From IMG/VR virus record IMGVR_UViG_3300023116_000162, positions 1-34,138 of that record: a DNA stretch of 34,138 nucleotides; one strand, given 5' to 3'. The DNA is from a virus. Under the pieces are notes generated by a model, which was not told the origin of the DNA, ran no database searches, and saw only the letters and a program-made list of their open reading frames with translations. A program made the translations under genes and the position numbers. Every line of letters begins with the position of its first letter. Position 1 is the first letter of the stretch. Shown piece by piece: positions 1,530 to 28,215 of the stretch.

Positions 1530-3671
1530 ATGGCTATAGAATTCGATACATTTCCAAGCGCTGGCGGCGGTGGATCCGTCGGCACATTACAACAAGTTAC
1601 CGATCAAGGCGCAACGACGACGACCAATATTCAAACCGCGCAAATTACTTTAACCGGTGATTTACTAGCAAGTTCAAATAATGCGCGAACAATCGGCGAT
1701 GAAACAAATCGTTTTATTACTGCATATTCTGACTTGAACGGTGCGTTAAGATTTAAAGCAAAAAATGATTCTGGGGTCGCATTAGTTAAGGGTCAAGCTG
1801 TATATATTAAAGGCGTTTCCGGAACGGTTCCGACAGTCGATAAAGCACAATCGAACGCAAGCGGAACAATGAACGCCGCCGGCCTTGCTTTAACCGCTGC
1901 CAACGACCAGGCGGAAGTTCAGATTATTACATTCGGAAATTTAAATTCGGTCGATACATCTTCATTTAATGCTGGCGATGTTCTTTATATTAGTTCATCA
2001 ACGGCCGGCGGACTTGTAAATTCAGCGCCGACCGGCGAAAGTAATTTGATTCAAAATATCGGCGTCGTTGTTCGAAGTCATGCGACCGATGGTGTTATTA
2101 AAGTTTCTGGCGCTGGTCGTTCGAATGCAACGCCGAACTTGGATAATAATAAATTATTTCTTGGAAATGGATCGAATCAAGCGGTTTCAACGGCATTAAG
2201 CGCGATTAACTTATCGTCGTTTAATGATGATTTAAACGCGTTAATTTCTACGAATAATTTAAGCGATCTTAACAACGCATCAACCGCGCGAACGAATCTC
2301 GGACTCGGAACCGCTGCAACTCAAGACGTCGGAACGTCGGCGAATAATGTTGTTCAATTAAACGCCAGCGCACAATTACCAGCGGTCGACGGTTCGTTAT
2401 TAACGAATATTACAGCGACAGATAGCACAAAGCTAGCGATCGCGAATAATCTAAGCGATCTTAACAACGTCGCCACCGCGCGAACGAATCTCGGACTCGG
2501 AACCGCCGCAACTCAAGATGTCGGAACAAGTGCGAATAACGTTGTTCAATTAGATGGAACCGCGAAACTTCCGGCGGTCGACGGTTCGCAATTAACGAAC
2601 ATTAGTCCGACCGGCGCTTTGTTAATCACGAATAATCTAAGCGATCTTAATAACGCAACGACAGCGCGAACTAATCTCGGACTCGGAACCGCCGCAACTC
2701 AAGACGTCGGAACGTCGGCGAATAACGTTGTTCAATTAAATGCAAGCGCACAATTACCAGCGGTCGACGGATCATTATTAACGAATATTACGGCGACAGA
2801 TAGCACGAAACTAGCGATCGCAAACAATCTAAGCGATCTTAATAACGTCGCGACGGCACGAACTAATCTCGGACTCGGAACCGCCGCGACTCAAGACGTC
2901 GGAACAAGTGCGAATAATGTTGTTCAATTAAATGGAAGCGCACAGTTACCAGCGGTCGACGGATCATTATTAACGAACATTACGGCGACAGATAGCACAA
3001 AGCTAGCGATCGCGAATAATCTAAGCGATTTAAATAACGTCGCTACCGCGCGAACGAATCTCGGACTAGGTACCGCCGCGACTCAAGACGTCGGAACAAG
3101 TGCGAATAATGTTGTTCAATTAAACGCCAGCGCACAATTACCAGCGGTCGACGGATCATTATTAACGAACGTTACGGCGACAGATAGCACAAAACTAGCG
3201 ATCGCGAATAATCTAAGCGATTTAAATAACGTGGCGACGGCTCGAACGAATCTCGGACTAGGTACCGCTGCGACTCAAGACGTCGGAACGTCGGCGAATA
3301 ACGTTGTTCAATTAGATGGAAGCTCAAGACTTCCGGCGGTTGACGGTTCGCAGCTTACAAATTTACCAAGTTCCGGCGGTGGCTTTACATATCAATCGAT
3401 AACGTCCGCATCATCGCCAGTTTCGGCGGTTGCTAGTTATCATTATTCGGCGGATACGTCCGGCGGTGCGATAACTGTAAATCTTCCGGCTTTAAGTGGC
3501 GTTACTGCCGGAACCGAAATCCGTTTTAAATTAAAAACGGCCGGCAATAATTTAACTTTAGACGGCAATTTAACGGAAACAATCGACGGAAGCGCGACAT
3601 ATATTTTAAGCGTTCAGAATCAAGCCGTAACTTGTGTATCCGACGGCTCCGGAAACTGGGAGATAATCTAA
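1530..3671 (+). CDS. Tail fibre protein with six 64-residue repeats
   Basis: This 713-aa protein has a unique N-terminal region (1-240) with a glycine-rich start (SAGGGGS) and a beta-rich section resembling those of many phage virion proteins. Next come six tandem repeats of about 62-64 residues (about 242-610), each beginning NNLSDLNN and containing ARTNLGLGTAATQDVGTSAN and LPAVDGS.LTN. A beta-rich C-terminal domain of about 100 residues closes it, with DGSATYILSVQNQ and ending SDGSGNWEII. The NLSDLNNxxTARTNLGLG element is a common phage fibre shaft motif. The protein probably trimerises into a fibre that reaches the host surface. AAGGATT lies upstream of the ATG. Repeat number could vary by recombination. 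Confidence 0.8.
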   Translation: MAIEFDTFPSAGGGGSVGTLQQVTDQGATTTTNIQTAQITLTGDLLASSNNARTIGDETNRFITAYSDLNGALRFKAKNDSGVALVKGQAVYIKGVSGTVPTVDKAQSNASGTMNAAGLALTAANDQAEVQIITFGNLNSVDTSSFNAGDVLYISSSTAGGLVNSAPTGESNLIQNIGVVVRSHATDGVIKVSGAGRSNATPNLDNNKLFLGNGSNQAVSTALSAINLSSFNDDLNALISTNNLSDLNNASTARTNLGLGTAATQDVGTSANNVVQLNASAQLPAVDGSLLTNITATDSTKLAIANNLSDLNNVATARTNLGLGTAATQDVGTSANNVVQLDGTAKLPAVDGSQLTNISPTGALLITNNLSDLNNATTARTNLGLGTAATQDVGTSANNVVQLNASAQLPAVDGSLLTNITATDSTKLAIANNLSDLNNVATARTNLGLGTAATQDVGTSANNVVQLNGSAQLPAVDGSLLTNITATDSTKLAIANNLSDLNNVATARTNLGLGTAATQDVGTSANNVVQLNASAQLPAVDGSLLTNVTATDSTKLAIANNLSDLNNVATARTNLGLGTAATQDVGTSANNVVQLDGSSRLPAVDGSQLTNLPSSGGGFTYQSITSASSPVSAVASYHYSADTSGGAITVNLPALSGVTAGTEIRFKLKTAGNNLTLDGNLTETIDGSATYILSVQNQAVTCVSDGSGNWEII
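2253..3366 (+). repeat. Six tandem ~192-bp coding repeats in the fibre shaft
   Basis: The codons for NNLSDLNN recur at 2253, 2445, 2631, 2823, 3015 and 3207, giving intervals of 192, 186, 192, 192 and 192 bp. The 186-bp interval is a variant unit lacking two codons (it reads SPTGALLIT where the others read TATDSTKLAIA). Copies are very similar at DNA level, with scattered synonymous changes, which suggests recent tandem duplication or ongoing gene conversion. Confidence 0.9.
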
Positions 3672-6021: not shown

Positions 6022-6345
6022 TTAATCGTTACATTCGAATTGATATTCGAGTTTTTTATAGTTTTCAATCGCTTCTTTTACCTGGTCATTACATAAGGAT
6101 TTACACGTTTTTAATTTACATTCGCTCGTATATTTTGCGAGTTCATCGACATAATATTTTTGATTCTTTTCTTGATCGTCTAAACATTGATTAAGTTTTA
6201 AAATATCATCCTTACATAATGTTTCACGTGAAACATGACCATGATTTCGGCCGATGAAATAAACGAAGATGATTAACGCGAACAAAGCGCCAATCGGAAA
6301 AAGATTATTTTTAAAATCAAAATTTGATAATATGGACTTGAACAT
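6022..6345 (-). CDS. Cys-rich membrane-anchored protein (i-spanin-like topology)
   Basis: I use ATG 6343-6345 (107 aa). A TTG two codons upstream would leave only 3 bases to the AAAGG ribosome site, whereas the ATG leaves 9. The protein has one transmembrane helix (about residues 15-33, FPIGALFALIIFVYFIG), then a probable periplasmic helical domain with six cysteines, including CKLKTCKSLC. This is the topology of an inner-membrane spanin, though the Cys count suggests disulphides. Its gene contains a perfect parS site (6220-6235), encoding VSRET. The start is only 27 bp from the divergent gene at 6373. Confidence 0.55.
   Translation of the reverse strand: MFKSILSNFDFKNNLFPIGALFALIIFVYFIGRNHGHVSRETLCKDDILKLNQCLDDQEKNQKYYVDELAKYTSECKLKTCKSLCNDQVKEAIENYKKLEYQFECND
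6220..6235. promoter_or_regulatory. parS: Perfect chromosomal-type parS site (ParB-binding)
   Basis: TGTTTCACGTGAAACA at 6220-6235 is identical to the consensus parS bound by chromosomal ParB proteins of many bacteria. With flanking A and T it is an 18-bp perfect palindrome (6219-6236). It lies inside the leftward gene 6022-6345, near its 5' end. No ParA or ParB gene is visible in the genome. That ParB of the host binds here is inference. A second near-perfect copy sits at 27675-27690. Confidence 0.8.
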
Positions 6346-6372
6346 TAACAAAAACCTTTCGGAGTTGATAAA

Positions 6373-6627
6373 ATGGAATTTAATACAGTCGCTTCTATTG
6401 TTTCGGTCGCTGGCGTAATCTTCGCGTACTTTTCTTTTTTACGCGAAAAATTAAATCAAGCGGAACAATTCGGCGAATTAAAACAAAAAGTTCGAACGCT
6501 AGAAAATCAAGCTCAAACAAACGAAAATAGATTTCAAACGATCGAAACAAAACTTGATACAATACAAACAACATTAACACAAGTTGATACAAGCTTAAAA
6601 AATTTATTGACAAATAGAAATACATAA
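6373..6627 (+). CDS. Small membrane protein with long coiled coil
   Basis: This 84-aa protein has an N-terminal hydrophobic helix (about residues 5-22, VASIVSVAGVIFAYFSF), then a long heptad-patterned helix with alternating Leu/Ile and Gln/Thr (KQKVRTLENQ, RFQTIETKLDTIQTTL). GGAG lies 8 bases before the ATG. It diverges from 6022-6345 with a 27-bp gap, so its promoter would have to lie within that neighbour. The build is like XhlA or holin-accessory proteins. The function is not established. Confidence 0.5.
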   Translation: MEFNTVASIVSVAGVIFAYFSFLREKLNQAEQFGELKQKVRTLENQAQTNENRFQTIETKLDTIQTTLTQVDTSLKNLLTNRNT

Positions 6628-6673
6628 TAGTTTATTAAAATCGGTTTATTTTTATCATTTGCCTTTTTGTCGT

Positions 6674-6726
6674 TTAAGCCGGTCGACAATACATTTTTAT
6701 ATATTTAAAAATCCGGCTCGGCTTAA
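6674..6726. terminator. Composite hairpin between convergent genes
   Basis: TTAAGCCG (6674-6681) pairs with CGGCTTAA (6719-6726); alternatively AGCCGG (6677-6682) pairs with CCGGCT (6713-6718). Inside is an AT stem ATTTTTA (6693-6699) with TAAAAAT (6706-6712). It lies between the end of the rightward gene 6373-6627 and the end of the leftward gene 6723-7289, the right place for a bidirectional terminator. No clean U-tract follows, so efficiency is uncertain. Confidence 0.45.
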
Positions 6727-7289
6727 CTTAGACTTTCTTGTTCGTCTGTTATACGTTTTACATCATCCGCCGATAAATCCGAACATTCGGCTAATTCATC
6801 CGGCGCGTAAACGCTGCCGAAGATTTCTGGATATACTTCGCGGATTAAACCCATTGTCGCGCGTTTGACTAACATGACCTCCGGCATTGTTTTATAAGAT
6901 CGATTTTTATTAAATAAACCGCGCGTTTTAGCTTGTTCAATCGTGAATGTAAAAGTATGTTCCGGAATATTGAAATCTATTTCGTCGCGTCGCCTGGTCG
7001 CTACTGTCGCGACTTCCGCCGTTCTTTCAACGGTTCGAAAGTATGCACAAATTTTATTTCCGTTTTGATCGGTCCAATTTCTGACAACGCCTTTCGCTGC
7101 GTCGGTGTTTATAGTTGGTTTCATAATGAACGAAGTATTCGCCAGCGTTAACGCGACATTAAAATCGAAGTATTGACCAAATCGCAAAAAACAAGCGATG
7201 TTTTTATCAAAGTCCGCTGGACTATTCGAAAAGATTCGAATCGCTGCGAGTTGAGATTCTTGTAAAATTGCACTGTAATTTATATTCAT
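6723..7289 (-). CDS. RecT-like single-strand annealing protein (putative)
   Basis: This 188-aa protein follows the layout of phage RecT-like proteins: a small-residue N-terminus, a central strand-rich core (FIMKPTINTDAAKG, then KICAYFRTVERT, VATRRRDEIDF and a TFTIEQAKTRGL segment), and a C-terminal helical part MPEVMLVKRATMGLIREVYP followed by GSVYAPDEL. The KRA..LIRE.YP.....G.YxxDE pattern is the one I associate with this group. It would anneal single strands during recombination or replication. No partner exonuclease is visible. It heads the distal end of the leftward early block. The assignment is by motif memory and could be wrong at family level. Confidence 0.6.
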   Translation of the reverse strand: MNINYSAILQESQLAAIRIFSNSPADFDKNIACFLRFGQYFDFNVALTLANTSFIMKPTINTDAAKGVVRNWTDQNGNKICAYFRTVERTAEVATVATRRRDEIDFNIPEHTFTFTIEQAKTRGLFNKNRSYKTMPEVMLVKRATMGLIREVYPEIFGSVYAPDELAECSDLSADDVKRITDEQESLS

Positions 7290-7922: not shown

Positions 7923-8153
7923 TTAATATTCTCCTAAGATGTCCGCGAAATCTTCGATTGAATAAGTAACGCCGCATAATTTCATCATCGCGCGATTTAT
8001 TTCAATCATTGTGCTTAATCTAATAGCTTGATTGTTTAGTTCATGAGTCAACATAGCCGGAGATATATTCAACTCTTTAGCAAGATCTTTAGAACGTAGT
8101 TTTTTTTGTTGTAAATCGTATCGAATACGAAATGAAAATCCGTTCATTGGCAT
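7923..8153 (-). CDS. Cro/CI-like helix-turn-helix DNA-binding protein
   Basis: This 76-aa protein carries an XRE-type helix-turn-helix at about residues 19-45: KDLAKELNISPAMLTHELNN, with the usual Ala in helix 2 and NIS turn. The first of two ATGs (8151-8153) has AAAGGAA six bases upstream, so I use it. It is a single-domain, Cro-sized protein in the leftward early operon next to the divergent control region 8464-8790. It likely binds operators there, the three GTTAAAAAA motifs being candidates. Repressor versus activator role cannot be told. Confidence 0.65.
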   Translation of the reverse strand: MPMNGFSFRIRYDLQQKKLRSKDLAKELNISPAMLTHELNNQAIRLSTMIEINRAMMKLCGVTYSIEDFADILGEY

Positions 8154-8790: not shown

Positions 8791-9516
8791 ATGAATGAAT
8801 TCGAATTACAAGACAAAATCATTCGATCTAAAAATCTATCAGTACGCGATAGATTTATCATGATCGCAATGTTAAAAAAAGTCGATTGGTCTACCTGGTC
8901 CGGCCAAATCACACAATCATATTTAAATAGATATACTGGCGTTTCGATGTCGACTATCAAAGCAGCTTTAAAGAATCTTGAGTCTATGAAATGGATAACA
9001 AGAACGACTCAAAGAAACGGCGCGCGTAATACTCCGACTATTATAAACATCAACGTCGAACATATATTAAAAGTTCACGGTGTTAAAATGAACGGGTCAA
9101 CTTCAACGGGTGAAAATGAACGGGTGAAAATGAACGGGTCAACTTCAACGGGTGAAAATGAACGGGTGAAAATAAACCACAATACAATAGATATAAACAA
9201 TAATAATAAAACAATAAATATAAACAATAATAATAAAACATATATAACGCGCGCGGAAGCTTTAGAACATACGTCGAATTTATCGTTTAATAATCTTGCT
9301 CATCTTTTAGACGAACGAAATAAGGTCCCGCTTCATATTCTTAACGCTGGTCATAGACGAAGCGAGATCGAACGACGTTTTAATAATTCCGATCTTGTAT
9401 CGAATCAATATAATCAATTCGAACGCGAATCAATATTCGAGAAATTTAAAAAAGATGAAATCGCCGAAGATTTTGAAATTTACGGTCATGATTCTAAGAT
9501 TGTTAAAAGTTGGTGA
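8791..9516 (+). CDS. Replication initiator-like winged-helix protein (O-like), contains origin
   Basis: This 241-aa protein probably binds the phage origin. Residues 1-90 form a helical DNA-binding region with a winged-helix look: SVRDRFIMIAML, then SYLNRYTGVSMSTIKAALKN as helix-turn-helix, and a WITRTTQRNGARNTPT wing. The middle (about 100-152) is low complexity, with NGSTSTGENERVKM twice and an Asn-rich DINNNNKT/NINNNNKT pair. These are the direct translation of origin repeats in the DNA. A helical C-terminus follows and may contact the helicase loader. It is immediately upstream of the DnaC-like gene. The arrangement equals lambda O-P. AAAAAGGG sits six bases before the ATG. Confidence 0.7.
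   Translation: MNEFELQDKIIRSKNLSVRDRFIMIAMLKKVDWSTWSGQITQSYLNRYTGVSMSTIKAALKNLESMKWITRTTQRNGARNTPTIININVEHILKVHGVKMNGSTSTGENERVKMNGSTSTGENERVKINHNTIDINNNNKTININNNNKTYITRAEALEHTSNLSFNNLAHLLDERNKVPLHILNAGHRRSEIERRFNNSDLVSNQYNQFERESIFEKFKKDEIAEDFEIYGHDSKIVKSW
9091..9174 (+). repeat. Origin iterons: six 14-bp direct repeats inside the initiator gene
   Basis: AACGGGT starts at 9091, 9105, 9119, 9133, 9147 and 9161, exactly 14 bases apart. Units alternate between AACGGGTCAACTTC and AACGGGTGAAAATG (last unit AACGGGTGAAAATA). A degenerate seventh copy may precede at 9077. Because 14 is not a multiple of 3, the motif is read in three different frames, so conservation is at DNA level and not for the protein. 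Together with the AT-rich block at 9191-9240 this is a lambda-type replication origin. Binding by the encoded protein is inference. Confidence 0.8.
9191..9240 (+). repeat. AT-rich duplicated block beside the iterons (DNA unwinding element candidate)
   Basis: A 23-bp sequence beginning ATATAAACAATAATAATAAA occurs at 9191-9213 and again at 9218-9240, a 27-bp offset. The stretch 9181-9246 contains almost no G or C. Its placement directly after the iterons matches the unwinding region of lambdoid origins. The 27-bp offset is 9 codons, giving the repeated Asn-rich peptide. The unwinding role is inference. Confidence 0.7.
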
Positions 9517-9518
9517 TT

Positions 9519-10430
9519 ATGAACGATTTAAAAAAATTAGGTGAAGAAGTTAAATTAAAGTCTATGATCATTGCATTCAATGAATTATTAAATGATCCAA
9601 ATCGCATAAAGCCGGAGCCGCCAACATTTAAGGATTGGACGAACTACGATCCAGATTATTATCATTTAAATGGATTATTAAAAACTGGTCGAAATCGAAC
9701 GTTAACGGCGATTGATCCGGCTTGTGGATATTGCGTCGAAGGTTATGAATATATTCGCGACGGTATTCATCCGAACGCTATATCATGTCGTAATTGCGGA
9801 AAATTAAGGAAATCATTAAATCGATTGATTCGCGCTAAGCTGCCGAATGATGCGATTAACGCTTGTATCTCCGATTATGAATTCGATAGTAAAGATCAAG
9901 AAAACGCATTTTATCATTTAATGAACTGGTCGCGCGATTCTATGATTCCGCCGGGTCTATTAATGTATGGCAAGCCCGGAAACGGTAAATCAACGCTATT
10001 ATATATTATAGCTAAACATAAAACCGCCGATGGATATAACGTTAAATACGCGCATCATTATCATACATTTGAACAACAAAAATCATCTTGGAATAAAAAA
10101 AACGGTTCGAATCATTTAGATAATTTTTTATATGGTGTCGATGTTCTTCTATTAGATGAATTCGGCGGTCTTGGCGGCGGAACAAAGAATTATTCGGATT
10201 GGTTTAAAAATACGACGATAGAATTTATTGGTTCGATTTATGAGCGATGGAAAGCTGGTCGAATGGCCGTCGTTATTACTACGAACGTTTATCCGTCGCT
10301 CATGAAGAATACTTTATTCGATAATAATTACGCAGTACTTTCAAGAATGCAAGATATGTTCAAGCATCCGATTGAAATTAAAGGACCGGATCGAAGGCCG
10401 GCGCTTAATCTCCATTCAGCTTGGAAGTAA
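9519..10430 (+). CDS. DnaC-like replicative helicase loader (AAA+ ATPase)
   Basis: From ATG 9519 this is 303 aa; a TTG at 9510 would add three residues. Four cysteines at residues 69, 72, 90 and 93 (CGYC and CRNC) form a likely zinc site before the ATPase core. Walker A is GKPGNGKS at 151-158 and Walker B is VLLLDEFGG at about 209-217. A long insert and VVITTN (sensor 1) follow. This is the DnaC/IstB/DnaA-like build, so it would load host DnaB at the phage origin. The gene follows the initiator with 2 bp between them, and its 3' end overlaps the leftward deaminase gene by 26 bp. No phage helicase is visible, so host DnaB is the expected partner. Confidence 0.85.
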   Translation: MNDLKKLGEEVKLKSMIIAFNELLNDPNRIKPEPPTFKDWTNYDPDYYHLNGLLKTGRNRTLTAIDPACGYCVEGYEYIRDGIHPNAISCRNCGKLRKSLNRLIRAKLPNDAINACISDYEFDSKDQENAFYHLMNWSRDSMIPPGLLMYGKPGNGKSTLLYIIAKHKTADGYNVKYAHHYHTFEQQKSSWNKKNGSNHLDNFLYGVDVLLLDEFGGLGGGTKNYSDWFKNTTIEFIGSIYERWKAGRMAVVITTNVYPSLMKNTLFDNNYAVLSRMQDMFKHPIEIKGPDRRPALNLHSAWK

Positions 10431-15063: not shown

Positions 15064-16017
15064 ATGAGTTTAAAATTTATTGATCTATTTTGCGGTCTTG
15101 GCGGATTTAGAATTGCATTAGAATCTTTCGGTTTAGAATGTGTATTTAGTTCGGATATAGATTTACATGTACAGAAAAATTATAAATATAACTTTAATGA
15201 TAATATACATGGAGATATAACCAACATAAACATAAATGATATTCCGAATCATGATATTTTATGCGCGGGCTTTCCTTGTCAGCCTTTTTCTATTGCAAAT
15301 AAATTTATAAACGGTTTTGAACATACAAAAGGCACTCTTTTTTATAATATTATAAAGATCGCTGAAAAACATAATCCGAAATGTGTTTTTATGGAAAACG
15401 TAGCGAATTTAGAAAAGCATGATCAAGGTAGAACATTAGACATAATTATAAAGTCGTTTCGAGAAATTGGATATTATGTTTATCATAAAGTTTTAAATAG
15501 TGCGGATTATGGCACACCACAAAAACGAAAAAGAATTTATTTAATCGCGATAAAGAAAACAATTATAAAAGCTTTTAATTTTCCGGATCCGATAAAAAAT
15601 TATAATGTTTTGTTGGATTATATCGATCAAAATAACAAGGACGAAAAACTATTAGTCAAAAGAAAATGTTTTATTTATAAACAAGTGAATGATGACGAAA
15701 GATTCAACGATATTAAAAGAATCGGCTTGATTGAAAACAATGAAAAACAAGGCTATAGAATTTATTCGCCGAATGGATTATCGATTACATTTACGGCGAA
15801 CGGTGGCGGTATAGCTGGGAAAACCGGCGCATATTTAATAGACGATATTGTTCGAAAATTATCGATTGATGAATGTTTAAGGATTTTAGGATATCCAGAT
15901 AACTATCATTTTCATAATGATATATCAAACGTACAAAGATATAAAATGATCGGAAATAGTGTATCCATTGATACATTAAAACATATTACTAAAGAAATCT
16001 TGAAAGTTATATTATGA
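15064..16017 (+). CDS. C5-cytosine DNA methyltransferase (orphan)
   Basis: This 317-aa enzyme would transfer methyl groups to cytosine C5. Motif I is FIDLFCGLGGF (residues 5-15), motif IV is GFPCQPFS with catalytic Cys72, motif VI is MENV (110-113), motif VIII is QKRKRIY (153-159) and motif X contains RYKMIGNSV near the C-terminus. All key motifs are intact and the length is at the short end for this family. No restriction endonuclease is adjacent. It sits between terminase and portal and uses more ATA, AAT and TTT codons and fewer TCG/GCG codons than its neighbours, which suggests later acquisition. The likely role is protecting phage DNA from host restriction or marking its own DNA. The target site is unknown. 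Confidence 0.92.
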   Translation: MSLKFIDLFCGLGGFRIALESFGLECVFSSDIDLHVQKNYKYNFNDNIHGDITNININDIPNHDILCAGFPCQPFSIANKFINGFEHTKGTLFYNIIKIAEKHNPKCVFMENVANLEKHDQGRTLDIIIKSFREIGYYVYHKVLNSADYGTPQKRKRIYLIAIKKTIIKAFNFPDPIKNYNVLLDYIDQNNKDEKLLVKRKCFIYKQVNDDERFNDIKRIGLIENNEKQGYRIYSPNGLSITFTANGGGIAGKTGAYLIDDIVRKLSIDECLRILGYPDNYHFHNDISNVQRYKMIGNSVSIDTLKHITKEILKVIL

Positions 16018-26109: not shown

Positions 26110-28215
26110 ATGGCGAACGGCGGAACAATAGAAATAGACGTCGAATTAAGCGGCGCGAAAGACATAACCGAAGAATTTGAATCAATCGGTAACGCTGGCA
26201 AAAAATTAGCGTCATCAATGGGAAATACTAACGAAAAACTAGGCGAAGGAATCGACCAGGTCGGCGAAACGGTTTCCGGATTATTAAATTCTTTTAGAGA
26301 TTTGGGAAAAACAATCGGAAAAGTCGGAAAAACCGGCGGTGTCTCTTTTACTGGTTTAGTATCGCGTTTCGCTGGCGTTGTCGGCGCAGCATACGCAGCT
26401 TACGAAACATTTAATTTATTATCGGGCGCAGCGCAAGAAGCCGAAGAAAATACAGCAAATATGGCAGCGGCGGCGGCGGATTTAGAATCGAAATTGGAAG
26501 CATTATCAGAAAACGGAGTAATTCCAACTTCGGACCAATTACAAAAATTTTCGATTGCTACATTACGCGCACAATTCGCAAAAGAAAAGTTACAAAAACA
26601 ACTTGAAAAATTTTCGAAAGCTGCAATCAAAGATTATGAAGCAACGCAACGACTAGAAAAAGCTACCGAAGCATTATCGAAAGCACAAAACGCCGCCGTT
26701 CGTAATGAACGCGCGTTAATAGAAGCACGCGCAGAATTTCAACGCGCGACCGTCGCAAGTACAAAAGCAAATATCGCGTTTCAAAATTCCGTCGGTAAAT
26801 TAAGAAAAGAACAAGAAAAAGTTGACGCTGGAATAGAAAAATCCGGCAAGATGTTAAAAGCATTAGAAGAAACAAGCGCGGAATCATTACAAAGCAAAAT
26901 TAAAGAAAATGCGGCAAAATTAGAAGGTTTAGTTTTAGGCGAATTAGAAACTAGATTAAGCGAAGATCAATTTAAGTTAAAATCATTACAAGTTAAAGAA
27001 GATACAAAATTACAATTATTACAAGCCGAAAGAAACAAAGATAATCGCGACGCCTTAATGAAACAAAATGATGATTTGGCGATCGCGATAAACTTGATTG
27101 ATCAAGAACGCGCAGTTACGCGGCGAACAATGTTCGAACGTATGAAGTTGATGGAAGAAATCGAAGAAAAAAAGAAATCAGCGCGCGAAAAAGATAAACA
27201 AAATGCCGAACGTGCGAGAATGAGCGCCGAACGCGAAAGACAAAGACAAGCCCAGATAGAAATGCAAAAAGTCGCAGAACGCGCGCGTATCCAACAACTA
27301 ATTATTGAAAATCAAAAGGATTCGGAACAAAAACAAATTAAACTCGCTGTACTTCGATATAATACGGCGTTACAACTCGCGAAAGATAATAATAATCAAA
27401 GAATTATCGCGGAACTTGCATTTCAAAATGAATTAAAATCAATTCGTAAAACATTCCAAGCGGAACAAGATTCGCAACGTTTAGCAAGATTAGAAGCGAA
27501 TAAACAATTCGCATATGAAACCGCCGAATTCAATATTCAACAAATCGAAAACGAATTCGAACGCGAAAATCTTTTACTAGCTTTACAATATGCGCAACGT
27601 TTAGACGCTGCGAAAAATAATCAAGAACAAATAACAGAATTAAATAGAAGATTCGCAATCGAAAGACAAAATCTTGTTTCACGTGAAACCGATATCGTTA
27701 ATCAAAAGTTATCTGGCTTTTTTGGAAATATGGGACGTGGATTCGCCGAAGCGGCAGTCGGTGCGATCATGTTCGGCGATTCATTCAAACAAGCGACCGC
27801 GCAATTATTACAAACACTAGCGAAACAAGCCGGTGTCGAATCATTGATCGAATTCGCGAAAGCTGCCGCATTTTCTATTACCGCGCCACCGTTGGCGGCG
27901 GCACATGCGAAAGCCGGAACAATATTCGCAGCGGCAGCGGTGGCCGCCGGTGGCGCGGCTTCGGTTATGGGTGCCGGTGGCGGTGGCGGTGGCGGTGGCG
28001 GTGGCGCGGGTATTAGCGGAAATATTTCGCCGTCCGGATCACCTCAAACATCAAATATGATAGAACGCGAACAAGCGACCGAACAAACATTAGTATTTAA
28101 TGTTAACTTTTCCGGCGCCGTCGTATATGATACAAAGAAAGCGGCGGAACAAGCGTTAGCCGATCGCATTACAAAAATAATGAAACAACAACGACGCGGA
28201 AAACCAAGAGTTTAA
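26110..28215 (+). CDS. Tape measure protein
   Basis: This 701-aa protein sets tail length. The N-terminal 70 residues include a helical start (DITEEFESIGNAGKKLASSM); a hydrophobic Gly/Ala stretch at about 80-105 (VSRFAGVVGAAYAAYETFNL) follows. Long charged coiled coil spans about 115-500, rich in Ala, Glu, Lys and Gln. Then come a hydrophobic Ala-rich zone (IEFAKAAAFSITAPPLAAAH) and a run of glycines. A 701-aa helical tape measure would suggest a tail near 100 nm by the usual 1.5 angstrom per residue rule. The gene holds a near-perfect parS site (27675-27690) coding VSRET. Confidence 0.85.
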   Translation: MANGGTIEIDVELSGAKDITEEFESIGNAGKKLASSMGNTNEKLGEGIDQVGETVSGLLNSFRDLGKTIGKVGKTGGVSFTGLVSRFAGVVGAAYAAYETFNLLSGAAQEAEENTANMAAAAADLESKLEALSENGVIPTSDQLQKFSIATLRAQFAKEKLQKQLEKFSKAAIKDYEATQRLEKATEALSKAQNAAVRNERALIEARAEFQRATVASTKANIAFQNSVGKLRKEQEKVDAGIEKSGKMLKALEETSAESLQSKIKENAAKLEGLVLGELETRLSEDQFKLKSLQVKEDTKLQLLQAERNKDNRDALMKQNDDLAIAINLIDQERAVTRRTMFERMKLMEEIEEKKKSAREKDKQNAERARMSAERERQRQAQIEMQKVAERARIQQLIIENQKDSEQKQIKLAVLRYNTALQLAKDNNNQRIIAELAFQNELKSIRKTFQAEQDSQRLARLEANKQFAYETAEFNIQQIENEFERENLLLALQYAQRLDAAKNNQEQITELNRRFAIERQNLVSRETDIVNQKLSGFFGNMGRGFAEAAVGAIMFGDSFKQATAQLLQTLAKQAGVESLIEFAKAAAFSITAPPLAAAHAKAGTIFAAAAVAAGGAASVMGAGGGGGGGGGGAGISGNISPSGSPQTSNMIEREQATEQTLVFNVNFSGAVVYDTKKAAEQALADRITKIMKQQRRGKPRV
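27675..27690. promoter_or_regulatory. parS: Second parS-like site (15 of 16 match)
   Basis: TGTTTCACGTGAAACC matches the chromosomal parS consensus TGTTTCACGTGAAACA except for the last base. The 14-bp core GTTTCACGTGAAAC (27676-27689) is a perfect palindrome. It lies inside the tape measure gene. It is 21,455 bp from the first site in one direction and about 12,544 bp in the other on the closed circle. Confidence 0.75.
27976..28005 (+). repeat. Hexanucleotide tandem repeat (GGTGGC x5) in tape measure gene
   Basis: Five perfect copies of GGTGGC lie in a row, coding a glycine run in the tape measure protein. The period is a multiple of three, so slippage would change the number of glycines without a frameshift. 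GC content here is far above the genome average. Confidence 0.85.

Follow-up and report, generated by a model that had tools for sequence, protein, structure and literature searches.

Described parS systems and the two sites in the window

Bacterial parS sites follow a consensus quoted in PMC10197239, and in Caulobacter the chromosomal sites can sit within genes (PMC5815017). When a low-copy plasmid in Caulobacter carried a strong parS, it was segregated instead of the chromosome, and viability went down about 1000-fold (PMC5815017). Among mobile elements, SGI1 has been proven experimentally to stabilize itself through the ParABS system of an IncC plasmid, by means of two parS mimics that it carries (PMC10954446). 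Mycobacteriophage RedRock encodes its own ParA and ParB and has eight direct 8-bp repeats per locus (PMC7157519), and work with an engineered lambda-parS and CFP-ParB demonstrated that an infecting phage genome is loaded with ParB made available in the cell (PMC13190303). What is known already comprises phage centromeres alongside the phage's own ParB, and parS mimicry aimed at a plasmid by an integrative mobilizable element. We found no report of naturally parS-bearing, ParB-less phages in the open-access literature, preprints not included, which is not proof of their absence.

The DNA analyzed here, called the window, is a 34,138-nt IMG/VR virus record. It contains two sites with three or fewer mismatches to parS and no third. 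The primary site, TGTTTCACGTGAAACA (6220 to 6235, no strand assigned), matches the consensus perfectly, lies in an 18-bp perfect palindrome at 6219 to 6236, and is housed by a lysis-region gene for a small membrane protein of 109 aa (6022 to 6351, minus strand). This gene is spanin-like by position and layout; a family assignment was sought for it and none was found. The second site, TGTTTCACGTGAAACC (27675 to 27690, no strand assigned), agrees with the consensus at 15 of 16 positions, its sole mismatch being the last base, and keeps the 14-bp core GTTTCACGTGAAAC unbroken (14/14). It is situated inside the 701-aa tape measure protein gene (26110 to 28215, plus strand), which was recognized by PHROG tape measure matches at an E value of 1e-5. 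Both sites are 16-bp near-palindromes matching TGTTTCACGTGAAACA with no more than one or two mismatches, which is how a parS site was defined. An identical terminal A-to-C change (TGTTCCACGTGGAACC) is found in parS1 and parS4 of P. aeruginosa, to which ParB binds only slightly less tightly than to perfect sites (PMC4368675). The second site encodes VSRET, residues 523 to 527 of the tape measure protein, and the primary site encodes VSRET on the minus strand in the 6022 to 6351 open reading frame (ORF). Thus, the sequence scan bore out the first-pass annotation, which had described a second site with an intact core and only its terminal base off consensus, and translation of both sites likewise supported its statement that two different genes encode the same peptide in the same phase. 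An overlap of 139 bp (98.6% identity) between the two ends of the window is consistent with a genome of about 34.0 kb that is circular or terminally redundant; on a circular map, 21.5 kb would separate the two sites in one direction and 12.5 kb in the other.

The sites thus belong to the same sequence class as chromosomal parS, with the core intact, but differ in being carried by a phage genome without a ParB or ParA gene and, for the second site, in lying within a virion gene. No match to ParB_N (PF02195) was obtained in the window at E values up to 10 or in 15 family records, which rules out a ParB of the phage's own, and neither ParA AAA_31 (PF13614) nor the tyrosine-family integrase domain (PF00589) matched in the window. 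Like P1 and RedRock, the window has centromere-like sites on phage DNA; however, those phages encode ParA and ParB and use site types of their own, whereas the window lacks both genes and its site is of the widespread chromosomal type. On the tyrosine-integrase test the window does not class as an integrating temperate phage either. SGI1 offers another likeness, being a mobile element that lacks a complete Par system and has two copies of another replicon's parS; the window has two parS sites, which may correspond to those of its host, and no detected ParB or ParA. The difference is that SGI1 is an integrative mobilizable element working with a plasmid ParB, whereas here the element is a phage and the parS is of the chromosomal type. 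With lambda-parS the window has in common a parS on a phage genome, which is an artificial labelling tool there and a natural site here. Genes for an O-like/DnaD-like replication initiation protein and a DnaC-like helicase loader (8791 to 10430, plus strand) point to autonomous replication. Separately, a 713-aa ORF at 1530 to 3671, probably a tail fibre gene, holds long near-tandem repeats at 2250 to 3352, with a unit of about 190 bp and 83 to 87% identity.

The tape measure site, chance and relatives

The expected number of copies of the 14-bp core was 1.3e-4 under a uniform model, 9e-6 under a Markov-3 model and 2.1e-4 under an amino-acid and codon model. When synonymous codons were shuffled with all proteins kept (n = 2,000), one core appeared in 92 shuffles and two cores in none. 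Against an expectation of about 2e-4 cores, and with two cores in none of the 2,000 shuffles, the sites exceed chance, and the pair is very unlikely to be a chance event.

The relatives of the tape measure gene bear on the second site individually. The IMG/VR scan retrieved 13 of them. One contig (L003) is 99.99% identical to the window across 15.2 kb and retains the site, and so brings no independent information; the palindrome is absent from the other 12, which are 44 to 56% identical and include two partial genes. Silent conservation of the palindrome, which the first-pass annotation had suggested looking for, is therefore rejected at 44 to 56% identity, and the site appears specific to the window phage and its near-identical contig. 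Conservation of position or sequence among relatives, which would support a parS site without defining it, does not hold for this site. At the alignable position, the relatives carry peptides of forms such as LNRETD, VNSETD and ITNES, so few changes would be needed to reach VSRET; this agrees with the earlier suggestion that a parS can be placed where the peptide is tolerated. By the same alignment, the tape measure peptide already resembled VSRET, so that fewer improbable steps were required to create the second site than the primary one.

The second site could, then, be a chance palindrome or a neutral codon accident, leaving 6220 as the sole functional parS. The 12 site-less relatives fit such an accident, as do the LNRETD and VNSETD peptides already present in homologues; VSRET once encoded, the window's codon use alone yields the core in 2.4% of cases, and the two parS-bearing family members described below manage with one site each. 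Against it stand the approximately 2e-4 cores expected per genome and the survey of other phages given below, and we consider the accident unlikely.

Moving parS sites in the phage family and the coding phase

The same family provided an explanation for the lack of conservation. Two members, G002 and G005, have one perfect parS 16-mer each, inside a ribonucleotide reductase gene, and have none in the spanin-like gene that houses the window's primary site. The reductase was named from its sequence, and we presume that it probably belongs to the B12-dependent class. At the parS position the reductases of G002 and G005 read VSRET, whereas the other eight homologues read (I/L)TR(E/D). The reductase of a third member, G067, is 97% identical to that of G002 and has no parS. 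Nucleotide differences between the two genes peak at the site: of all 48-nt windows along the 2,019-nt gene, those with the most differences cover it, and none of 5,000 codon shuffles matched this density of differences. G002 and G005 also have an exact stretch around parS in common, and the sites of both may have originated from one short transfer. In the spanin-like gene, 11 of 11 homologues have GF(I/V)P where the window has GHVSRET, F(I/V)P having been replaced by HVS. Judging from these alignments, a perfect parS arises in different genes of one family and costs conserved residues. Such overwriting of conserved residues is what one would expect of selection on the DNA sequence and not on the peptide.

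The gene order around these sites is related. A RecT-like annealing protein gene (PHROG RecT; 6723 to 7289, minus strand, in the window) adjoins or lies near parS in each of the three family members that bear one: G002, G005 and, at the primary site, the window. In G002, G005 and G067 the reductase gene sits between the spanin-like gene and recT, and the window lacks it (6022 to 7289); there, the primary parS occupies the neighbouring spanin-like gene. No acceptable parS was found in eight of the larger family records (31 to 38 kb), indicating that the trait is gained and lost and is not essential to these phages. The first-pass annotation had proposed that absence of the palindrome from close relatives would speak against function. 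The absence was found, in 12 relatives, but it does not refute function, because the family's undoubted, perfect parS sites are equally mobile.

One may also suppose that the VSRET peptide was under selection and that the palindrome was its by-product, since VSRET occurs at both window sites and at those of G002 and G005. The peptide's hosts are, however, three unrelated protein families in which nearly all homologues lack it, and VSRET is each time spelled with precisely the parS codons, where 2.4% would be expected for each window site. Moreover, parS often occurs in the FHVK phase or away from long ORFs. One of its three phases, TGT TTC ACG TGA, carries a stop, leaving VSRET and FHVK as the open ones, so that two sites should agree in phase in about half of cases or more. 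In the viral-contig matches listed, with 146 perfect sites, VSRET outnumbered FHVK by 58 to 15 in ORFs of at least 80 codons. We accordingly regard selection on the peptide as scarcely credible. Because TGA closes one phase and VSRET is generally favoured in the others, the shared phase of the two window sites is weak evidence for function, and the coincidence was dropped as an argument.

parS in other phages and the probable role of host ParB

Perfect parS occurred in at least 120 IMG/VR stretches, compared with 5 for a palindrome scramble of the same composition, and the exact variant TGTTTCACGTGAAACC likewise occurred in at least 120 compared with 5 for its matched scramble, whereas Markov models predicted 8 to 21 per 50 Gb for parS, TGTTTCACGTGAAACC and both scrambles alike. 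This enrichment of TGTTTCACGTGAAACC argues against the second window site being an accident. A form with a central mismatch, TGTTTCACATGAAACA, was intended as a negative control but failed as such, being itself present in at least 120 stretches against about 27 to 29 predicted per 50 Gb, so that the usable controls are the same-composition scrambles, with 5 each. The abundance of TGTTTCACATGAAACA means that enrichment is not confined to sites expected to bind well; this form may be a clade-specific ParB site or the site of another factor. It was seen in diverse viral contigs, for example L327 to L445, where the 121 sites among the matches listed fell into 99 flank clusters.

Of the larger parS-bearing viral records among the matches listed, part of which may be host DNA, 17 of 44 had more than one site at two or fewer mismatches, and multiplicity this common also weakens the case for an accidental second site. 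TerL was found in 17 of the 44, with a ParB_N match, below threshold, in 1 of these 17. One record with several sites, G015 (L190, G015:16500-26500), carries, within the N-terminal part of TerL, a parS with one mismatch that is read in the VSRET phase, and has two perfect parS elsewhere in the genome, outside long ORFs; in its sequence layout it is a close parallel to the window phage. In other phages, parS or its terminal variant was located inside TerL, portal and scaffold genes, again in the VSRET phase. In proteins of phrog_28737 (L261, L484 and L288), an acidic N-terminal region holds the parS core, read in the VSRET phase; in a distant cultured relative, Pelagibacter phage HTVC027P, the site lies elsewhere, between genes. 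Of 12 named phages, HTVC027P was the one that carried a parS, a one-mismatch intergenic site, and ParB_N was not found in it. In L032 (3 to 4064), an ORF of 1354 aa that matches the PHROG 'ParB C-terminal domain' has a perfect parS inside its own coding sequence.

Could the palindrome be something other than parS, such as the operator of another phage or host regulator, or a methylation or restriction signal? The phage does encode a C5-type DNA methyltransferase (15064 to 16017, between the terminase and portal genes) and a Cro/CI-like HTH protein (7923 to 8153), and the parS reading is built on sequence comparison. Nevertheless, the sites are identical over 15 to 16 bp to the published bacterial parS consensus (PMC10197239), lie inside diverse genes and not at promoters, and recur as the same sequence in unrelated phages, which makes an operator or methylation signal highly improbable.

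Since the phage encodes no ParB, the ParB involved must be that of the host. We infer that it binds the window sites and that the phage benefits. The reading that we favour, and think likely, is that 27675 is a genuine secondary parS for a host chromosomal ParB, with 6220 as the primary site, and that the phage exploits the host ParABS system. Host ParB would recognize both sites, load as CTP-bound clamps and slide to flanking DNA, making the phage genome a cargo of host ParA and perhaps also a place where SMC loads. As non-coding room is scarce in the genome, parS would have come to lie within genes, in the VSRET phase, and such sites would quickly appear, move and vanish in evolution. If ParB binds, then loading at two places, as the first-pass annotation envisaged, follows; the bridging of the genome by the two sites that it also raised is possible in principle and speculative.

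The benefit would most likely be tethering or partitioning of an extrachromosomal phage genome, with titration, which would draw ParB off the host origin, a possible effect or an alternative benefit. In its strong form the latter would be a takeover, in which host ParB is bound just as in the favoured reading but many phage copies titrate it from the host origin and block segregation or division. The roughly 1000-fold viability loss caused by a strong plasmid parS in Caulobacter (PMC5815017) is consistent with a takeover, as is the lack of a tyrosine-family integrase match in the window. With one or two sites per genome, however, the dose for titration would be low, and partitioning and titration are not separable from sequence; we regard a takeover as possible but rather doubtful.

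The proteins gave few indications of the host. The tape measure protein and the last tail ORF had no protein relatives among 50,697 phage records, and the relatives of the portal protein were distant and of mixed hosts. A relative of the last tail ORF, 56% identical, is carried by a 5.6-kb contig (L167) in a MAG labelled as a Sulfolobales archaeon, where it was probably mis-binned.

Beyond this phage, exploitation of host ParABS by parS sites may, on balance, extend to many diverse ParB-less phages, a generalization that we hold somewhat less firmly than the favoured reading of the window. The sites would be in coding sequences, often of virion genes (terminase, portal, scaffold and tape measure) and in the VSRET phase, would be repeatedly gained and lost, with two or more in some genomes, and would be loaded with host ParB clamps during infection or an extrachromosomal carrier state. 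This wider pattern of chromosomal-type parS in the coding sequence of ParB-less phages is more interesting than the single site at 27675, and a parS in coding sequence is a signature searchable in any phage genome. If the pattern holds, host ParB ChIP peaks are predicted on infecting phage DNA, and phages that borrow the ParB of the host chromosome via sites in virion genes would link phage biology to bacterial chromosome segregation and suggest a possible means of persistence for phages that have neither an integrase nor Par genes.
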